Source: Bacteroidota bacterium
Lineage (GTDB): Bacteria > Bacteroidota > Bacteroidia > Bacteroidales > Prolixibacteraceae
Direction of reading: 5' to 3'
DNA length: 64,000 nt
Assembly: GCA_023251435.1 (NCBI GenBank)
Contig: JAHEYU010000032.1
Span: 1-64,000, forward strand
Below the pieces are notes generated by a model, which searched no databases, was not told the DNA's origin, and was given only the letters and a program-made list of their open reading frames with translations. How positions within the stretch are numbered: position 1 is the first letter of the stretch; every line of letters starts with the position of its first letter. Shown here one piece after another: positions 12,984 to 20,455 of this stretch. A program made the translations under genes and the position numbers.

Positions 12984-13022
12984 AAATATCTGTATCAAAA
13001 TAAGTCTTTTCATAAAATGGAA

Positions 13023-13153
13023 ATCCGCAATATTACTCAATATCATAAACGCAATTTGTCATTTGGTAGTCATTAAATTGTCAGTATATGACAACAGAAT
13101 GACCACAAATGACTGACGCAAAATGCGAAATTGGTATGAAAACGGACAATCAT
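13023..13153. repeat. Dispersed non-coding repeat, copy A, with phased GTCA/TGAC units
   Basis: This stretch matches 20290-20434 at roughly 85% by eye. Shared blocks include ATCCG-AATATTAC near the start, GTCATTTGGTAGTCATTAA in the middle and ACGGACAATCAT at the end. Inside, GTCA starts recur every 11 bp on the left and TGAC starts every 10-11 bp on the right, so the unit is an imperfect inverted array. No coding potential. The remainder of the 12984-13415 gap is AT-rich with nothing I can assign. Confidence 0.75.
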
Positions 13154-20238: not shown

Positions 20239-20289
20239 AGATTCTTTATTTAGTTTATTTATTACACTTTATTATTTTGATTTACGATT

Positions 20290-20434
20290 ATCCGTAATAT
20301 TACCCAATGTCATAAAAGTCATTTGGTAGTCATTTGGTAGTCATTAAGTTGCCAGAAAAAGACAATAGAATGACAATAAATGACCAAAACTGACTGATGT
20401 AAAATACCAAATAGGTATGCAAACGGACAATCAT
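20290..20434. repeat. Dispersed non-coding repeat, copy B, with phased GTCA/TGAC units
   Basis: Second copy of the element at 13023-13153, in the same orientation. Here the unit GTCATTTGGTA is doubled in tandem with an 11 bp period, followed by GTCATTAAGTT and then TGAC-type units at 10-11 bp spacing. The right end ACGGACAATCAT is identical in both. It lies 52 bp upstream of the GH10 start and 22 bp downstream of the symporter stop. Confidence 0.75.
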
Positions 20435-20455
20435 ATTTGATTTATACTATACATT

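Follow-up and report, generated by a model that had tools for sequence, protein, structure and literature searches.

The window, that is, the whole stretch of 64,000 nucleotides that was analysed, contains two copies of a short repeat, referred to below as A and B. Their gene contexts are unrelated, as the sequence-only reading of this DNA had stated, and copy B occupies the spacer between two minus-strand genes encoding a GH10 protein and an MFS sugar transporter. The features are as follows.

13018..13153, plus strand: copy A, a probable MITE of the GTCATT-core family, 136 bp; target duplication not recognisable
13018..13041, plus strand: left terminal inverted repeat (TIR) of copy A, TGGAAATCCGCAATATTACTCAAT
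13058..13117, unstranded: phased core of copy A, with GTCA at 13058, 13069 and 13080 and TGAC at 13089, 13100, 13110 and 13114
13130..13153, minus strand: right TIR of copy A, reading ATGATTGTCCGTTTTCATACCAAT on the reverse strand
20276..20284, unstranded: left target-site duplication of copy B, TTTGATTTA
20285..20435, plus strand: copy B, a probable MITE of the same family as copy A, 151 bp, in the spacer of the GH10 and MFS sugar transporter genes
20309..20394, unstranded: phased core of copy B, with GTCA at 20309, 20318, 20329 and 20340 and TGAC at 20371, 20381 and 20391
20436..20444, unstranded: right target-site duplication of copy B, TTTGATTTA

The sequence-only reading had placed the copies at 13023-13153 and 20290-20434. 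Both are present there, but with their TIRs they are slightly wider, 13018-13153 and 20285-20435. In copy A, the GTCA units start at offsets 0, 11 and 22, exactly as claimed, and the TGAC units, put at about 30, 41 and 51, start within one base of these values at 31, 42 and 52, with a further unit at 56. Other estimates shifted on measurement. Instead of being roughly 85% alike, A and B are identical in 112 of 138 aligned columns (81%, or about 80%; BLAST of A against B gives 77% with E 2.5e-26). Likewise, the ends, which had been considered the best conserved parts, have a lower mean column conservation (0.85 on the left and 0.86 on the right) than the core (0.90). Both copies have stops in all six frames and contain no ORF.

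A BLAST search of the own genome with copy A as a query returned 43 rows at a cut-off of E <= 10, with several rows representing pieces of a single copy and the last two being weak; the matches number about 40. When a consensus query was used at E <= 0.01, matches were found in 25 of 61 genomes including the own one, namely in 20 of the 22 remaining genus genomes, 3 of 14 from the same family and 1 of 24 from the same order. At the loci read in the poorer genomes, the matching part was mostly the core. The right end of the family, allowing up to three mismatches, is present in 11 of 23 genus genomes, and of the single right-end matches in G006, G012 and G022, the one in G022 falls within a gene and the others correspond to elements with different cores. 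In the own genome, 29 of 30 copies overlap no ORF of at least 120 aa by more than 60 nt. The spacing was counted in 25 own-genome copies, which are related and therefore do not provide independent counts: 42 of 65 successive GTCA spacings are 11 nt and 14 are 9 nt, while the 69 TGAC spacings include 37 of 10 nt, 15 of 11 nt and 11 of 4 nt. The phase is a property of the whole family. The MITE family itself is new, as is the likeness of its core to the repeat code of an S23-type cassette.

The boundaries of the copies are formed by imperfect terminal inverted repeats, TGGATATCCG...CGGACAATCA; in an ungapped comparison, TGGATATCCGTAATATTACC and TGATTGTCCGTTTGCATACC are alike at 12 of 20 positions. 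We examined 34 copies having both ends (19 from the own genome and 15 from the genus, from the first 70 loci), not all of them independent, since the flanks of at least one pair, L022 and L060, suggest orthology. Exact direct repeats of 8 nt or longer lie on either side of 15 of the 34, compared with 3.1% when left and right flanks from different copies were paired, and a repeat of at least 9 nt flanks 9 of the 34, compared with 1.9% for such swapped flanks. In the other 19 copies, copy A among them, no direct repeat of at least 8 nt was found.

Copy B itself lies between two TTTGATTTA repeats. In the orthologous spacer of G009 (L350), which is nearly identical to the copy B flanks on both sides with a few single-base differences, the element is absent and TTTGATTTA occurs once. 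Of the 13 other genomes aligned at this spot (L347-L359, a comparison that left out a fourteenth genome, L360, and weak matches), 12 have no element and one, G015 (L349), has a different, degenerate element of the same type. For copy A, the orthologous spacer was not alignable, the neighbouring DNA being too divergent among genomes. The suggestion that the repeat is a mobile element, along with the proposed search for target-site duplications, is thus borne out by the TIRs, the duplications of about 9 bp, the empty site of copy B and the many dispersed copies. It is on account of these properties that we assign A and B to MITEs: they are short and non-coding and have TIRs, a target duplication and many dispersed relatives. 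The copies have inserted into intergenic DNA rich in A+T, duplicating about 9 bp of the target, and a transposase acting in trans would use the TIRs.

Core-only matches in relatives turned out to be GTCATT/AATGAC arrays, one of them immediately preceding a four-helix-bundle protein gene. These proteins correspond to Pfam PF05635 (NCBIfam TIGR02436). According to the parts of the literature covered, the family is known from 23S rRNA intervening sequences (IVS) and has no known function (PMC4990558, PMC11270868). Among solved structures, the closest in sequence is 2gsc (XCC0516; E 0.0011), described as a homopentamer in the portion of PMC4990558 consulted. The own genome has seven PF05635 genes, and such genes are present in all 23 genus genomes. 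Among the matches listed, 137 genes were extracted with their flanks, and 132 of these had enough flank, many being orthologous, so that the counts below are not independent. In 109 of the 132, the sequence upstream of the gene matches the inverted complement of the downstream sequence beyond the 99th percentile of shuffled sequences, and in 91 of the 132 the gene's own arms beat all 20 downstream sequences of other genes. For 37 neighbouring control ORFs, the 99th percentile was 24, compared with the threshold of 25. Clade-specific repeat codes beyond GTCATT are not claimed: among pairs of PF05635 proteins with at least 55% identity and different contexts, some of which are possibly still orthologous, 28 of 186 share 7-mers above the 99th percentile of the null, as against 75 of 7483; pairs at 40-55% identity show no excess (3 of 673).

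Within this family, the GTCATT/AATGAC arrays are associated with one clade, characterized by an MKLEDLxVYQ-like start. All 10 genus genes of the clade have the arrays within 250 nt, and none of the remaining 127 PF05635 genus genes do; when the distance was extended to 350 nt, two AATGAC were found downstream of 4 of these 127. One gene of this kind, a PF05635 gene between arms, is found in the own genome (L074). In L074 and its orthologs, the AATGAC array starts within the 3' end of the coding region, where AATGACCACCAATGA encodes NDHQ-stop. Other clades in the genus have inverted arrays of their own, for example, of GGAAGTC or CAGTGGTCAGTCG units (L129, L132, L135; L111, L114, L116, L120). 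Since 9 of the 10 array-bearing clade genes represent a single orthologous site, the independent test lies outside the genus.

We therefore turned to the best 80 of 96 named clade loci, mostly from metagenome bins. By their titles, these loci belong to Bacteroidota, Ignavibacteria, Chlorobiota, Neomarinimicrobiota, Cloacimonadota, KSB1, Verrucomicrobia, Nitrospinia and Calditrichaceae. Mangrovibacterium marinum and Sunxiuqinia dokdonensis also have genes of the clade. Dropping the first 9 (the genus, Mangrovibacterium and Sunxiuqinia) left 71 loci, some of them from one organism. At least two GTCATT were found upstream in 38 of the 71, compared with 0 of 142 control windows, which were the end windows of the same 71 loci. 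Similarly, at least two AATGAC were found downstream in 43 of the 71, compared with 6 of 142. An array in the expected orientation is present on at least one side in 50 of the 71 loci, on both sides in 31 and on neither in 21; the reversed orientation was observed in 5 of 71. Among successive GTCATT spacings, 57 of 129 on the upstream side and 41 of 130 on the downstream side are 10 or 11 nt. Across these non-genus loci (L216-L286), the GTCATT spacings are 7/8, 10/11, 14-16, 18 or at least 20 nt, once 13, and never 9, 12, 17 or 19. By eye, the longer linkers at L216-L286 often contain GCTTCGC-like mini-hairpins.

The resemblance between cassettes and MITEs extends to the linker, which is mostly N-R-(R)-T-W. 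The linker T stands at a fixed place in 45/45 and 52/53 units of the cassettes (97/98) and in 49/51 and 21/21 units of the MITE (70/72). The second linker base is T, not a purine, in 10 of the 51 11-nt MITE units. In addition, 17-mers of the MITE consensus occur in the clade flanks of 4 of the 71 non-genus loci and 14-mers in 12 of 71, with 0 of 71 in distal controls; MITE 20-mers were found in none of the 71. The MITE core and the arms of this one PF05635 clade thus have in common GTCATT upstream, AATGAC downstream and a 10/11-nt spacing, and the phased core occurs outside the MITE as well. To what is known of PF05635, the analysis adds the pairing of one protein clade with one repeat code across phyla. 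Among the open-licence papers listed, none was seen to link dispersed intergenic repeats or arrays to PF05635 genes.

How such arms could be left without a gene is illustrated by the site between the iron hydrogenase and 2Fe-2S thioredoxin-like genes (as assigned by Pfam), which was compared in 20 genus genomes, a 21st weak match being excluded. Arrays with a gene-sized insert are present in 8 of the 20. An internal deletion in G009 leaves about 62 codons, and between the G011 arrays the gene is reduced to roughly its final 26 codons. The arrays are bare in two of the 20 genomes, another genome carries a different array that includes a few GTCATT, one has an AATGAC array there with the upstream gene not found, and 6 have no GTCATT. 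Full, shortened, ORF-deleted and bare arrays at a single site imply that ORF-less GTCATT hairpins do arise from PF05635 cassettes. In L429, L430 and L432, which have no GTCATT cassette, the spacer of the hydrogenase operon contains another small palindrome, ACGTTGCATGCAACGT. Elsewhere, in G007 (L151), the right half of a MITE is fused to the left array of a cassette. A search for MITE TIRs around 136 genus PF05635 loci gave two weak matches, one of which is this hybrid, and a search around the best 80 of 96 named clade loci gave one match, the same L151 site. Except for this hybrid, no intermediate of core capture was seen.

The TIRs themselves are shared more widely than the core. The looser end pattern ATGARTRTCCGNNTGNNTACCTA, with up to two mismatches, occurs in 11 of 16 other genus genomes and has 65 matches, compared with 3 for a reversed-pattern control. 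At the loci read, the DNA between end pairs with up to six mismatches in sum measures 170-317 bp and contains hairpin cores of very different kinds. Among 14 such other-core elements, picked for having both flanks (L326 and L328 share one flank), 10 are flanked by direct repeats of 8 nt or longer, compared with 10 of 182 swapped pairs. The MITE ends belong to a TIR superfamily bearing various hairpin cores. Outside the genus, the end pattern is near background (13 single-end matches compared with 5 for the control in 29 genomes), and the loci of those 13 matches contain only weak pairs, with at least seven mismatches in sum. A transposase with these ends was not found at 30 of 50 DDE_Tnp_1 places of 6 genomes, representing one transposase family. 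At the loci examined, no end pair more than 500 bp apart with up to four mismatches per end was detected except for that of two neighbouring MITEs.

Taken jointly, we consider it probable (roughly 0.78) that A and B belong to a high-copy MITE family, that they carry an ORF-less S23-type hairpin and that this hairpin descends from S23 arms. The core would correspond to the inverted GTCATT/AATGAC arms found on both sides of the genes of one S23/23S-rRNA-IVP clade, but with no ORF between them; we liken the two because unit, spacing and arm arrangement are alike and the linker is much alike. Such arms may have been captured into a MITE of the TIR superfamily with various hairpin cores. In S23 cassettes, the arms would be what the protein recognizes, the 10/11-nt spacing aligning the units along a single helical face, and the hairpin would let a cassette sit inside operons. 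Units of 10 and 11 nt, about equal in number, fit sites on one face of B-DNA, and the recurrence of this rhythm around the genes of one clade in unrelated bacteria renders protein recognition more plausible; a hairpin RNA would be a possible alternative. Within the MITE, the core would be a passenger or a decoy for the same protein, and no regulatory duty is expected at A or B. The overall interpretation offered by the sequence-only reading therefore stands in part, namely for the mobile element and the hairpin.

Could the GTCATT array instead be a subterminal binding array for the MITE's own transposase, with the likeness to S23 arms being convergent or later borrowed by the cassettes? Transposases with arrays of subterminal sites exist, and the phased 10/11-nt units do adjoin the TIRs. 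However, very different cores are found in MITEs with similar TIRs, which suggests that movement does not require the array. Moreover, the same unit, linker and orientation recur around S23 genes of other phyla, and there the TIR is missing apart from the one hybrid site. We regard this explanation as unlikely.

The match between motif and protein clade might also mean that an S23-type four-helix-bundle protein mobilises the GTCATT MITEs in trans by binding their core, and a role of the ORF in the mobility of 23S intervening sequences has indeed been proposed (PMC4990558, in the parts covered). Nevertheless, S23 cassettes do not carry the MITE TIRs, and TIR MITEs with other cores move as well. 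In addition, at the hydrogenase site, which was the one site examined in this respect, the ORF of the cassette is deleted in G011 and internally deleted in G009, both of them genomes rich in MITEs. Mobility driven by an S23 protein is accordingly quite improbable.

Folding bears on a further possibility. The mean RNA folding z-scores of 25 copies, -3.4 for the plus strand and -3.9 for the minus strand, agree with the large imperfect hairpin envisaged earlier. RNAalifold gave no hairpin for the plus strand (6 pairs, -1.6 kcal/mol) and 20 pairs for the minus strand, 3 of the 20 with a double change. A claim of structural covariation was rejected, as the signal is weak on the minus strand (3 of 20 pairs) and absent from the plus strand. 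The minus strand of the MITE folds better than the plus strand (p 5e-5). S23 cassettes show no strand preference, the sense strand folding better in 58 of 132 (p 0.09) and in 41 of 75 (p 0.16), and for this reason a claim of RNA-level function was dropped.

A dispersed regulatory or RNA element, be it a phased operator array, a hairpin RNA cut by RNase III or an attenuator for the neighbouring genes, would be compatible with the MITE reading. It would account for a hairpin more stable than its shuffles on both strands, for the intergenic position of 29 of 30 copies and for the location of copy B within a likely GH10/MFS operon. Yet in 12 of 13 related genomes the two genes flanking copy B are present and the element is not, which argues against a conserved duty there. 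The dissimilar gene contexts of A and B and the weak covariation point in the same direction, as does Rfam, which gave 0 matches over the window at the gathering threshold. The earlier statement that the repeat fits no known family therefore holds with respect to Rfam, but the core does resemble the arms around PF05635 genes. Overall, we consider a regulatory or RNA role very unlikely. Finally, a local duplication of just two sequences with chance periodicity, the case named as refuting by the sequence-only reading, is practically negligible, being refuted by the 43 own-genome BLAST rows on many contigs, the matches in 20 of 22 genus relatives and the same spacing in unrelated bacteria.

MITEs carrying ORF-less S23-type arms can be set beside several known systems, as described in the covered parts of the sources cited here. 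The Porphyromonas gingivalis MITEs BrickBuilt, 239, 464/PgRS and 700 have similar TIRs and a dissimilar remainder, and some contain internal tandem repeats of 23 and 41 nt (PMC4596501). Like these MITEs, which have around 10-20 copies each, the present family is short, intergenic and TIR-bearing and lacks a transposase (PMC4596501). The P. gingivalis TIRs match IS5-family elements (PMC4596501), whereas the parent of the present family was not found in a partial search. Further differences are the target duplication of about 9 bp and a core that is an inverted phased array like the arms of a protein family. The ORF-bearing cassettes of the genus resemble the 23S rRNA IVS in having hairpin arms around a PF05635 ORF, but they lie between protein genes, and their arms are short-unit arrays differing by clade. 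A and B share with IVS and PF05635 cassettes the pairing of hairpin ends. Unlike IVS, they have transposon ends, contain no PF05635 gene or other ORF and lie between protein genes, not in rRNA.

The TAACTGA heptamer repeats of Beggiatoaceae, Cyanobacteria and some Bacteroidetes (PMC4679880) are likewise intergenic short-unit arrays with a patchy distribution over phyla, and their mechanism of spread is unknown (PMC4679880). These are direct heptamer repeats, in contrast to the inverted arms of the core described here. The words 'four helix', '23S' and 'S23' are absent from the text of PMC4679880, and inverted partner arrays or TIRs are not mentioned in the parts covered. REP/REPIN sequences are also small, palindromic and intergenic, but REPs measure 20-40 bp (PMC3116915, PMC3733652, in the parts covered), compared with about 150 bp, TIRs and a target duplication for the MITE.

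The pairing of clade and repeat code poses a testable question, namely whether a PF05635 protein binds its own arms, as DNA or as RNA, and the MITE family offers dozens of natural ORF-less targets in one genome. Our reading of the core would also explain where one class of odd, phased repeats between genes comes from. A broader and more tentative idea, which we rate at somewhat below even odds, is that S23/IVP four-helix-bundle genes outside rRNA represent a large undescribed class of hairpin mobile cassettes. In such a class, the protein of each clade would read a private repeat code in the flanking arms, and MITEs like A and B would hijack these arms to become ORF-less, protein-targeted mobile hairpins.

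Other members of the TIR superfamily have cores of their own. In a second superfamily MITE (L288), the core matches only the flanks of three PF05635 genes, possibly orthologs, of an MKSYKDLEIY clade. The similar-ended MITEs L307, L319, L320, L331 and L339 have cores with GGGCTTTAGCCC and CCGTTGACT..AGTCAACGG palindromes, which we take to resemble REP-type repeats. A further MITE type with similar ends, 284-317 bp long, is represented by L322, L326, L328, L335, L337 and L345, and its hairpins are GGGGCTTTGCCCC and CCTTTTTTGT..ACAAAAAAGG.
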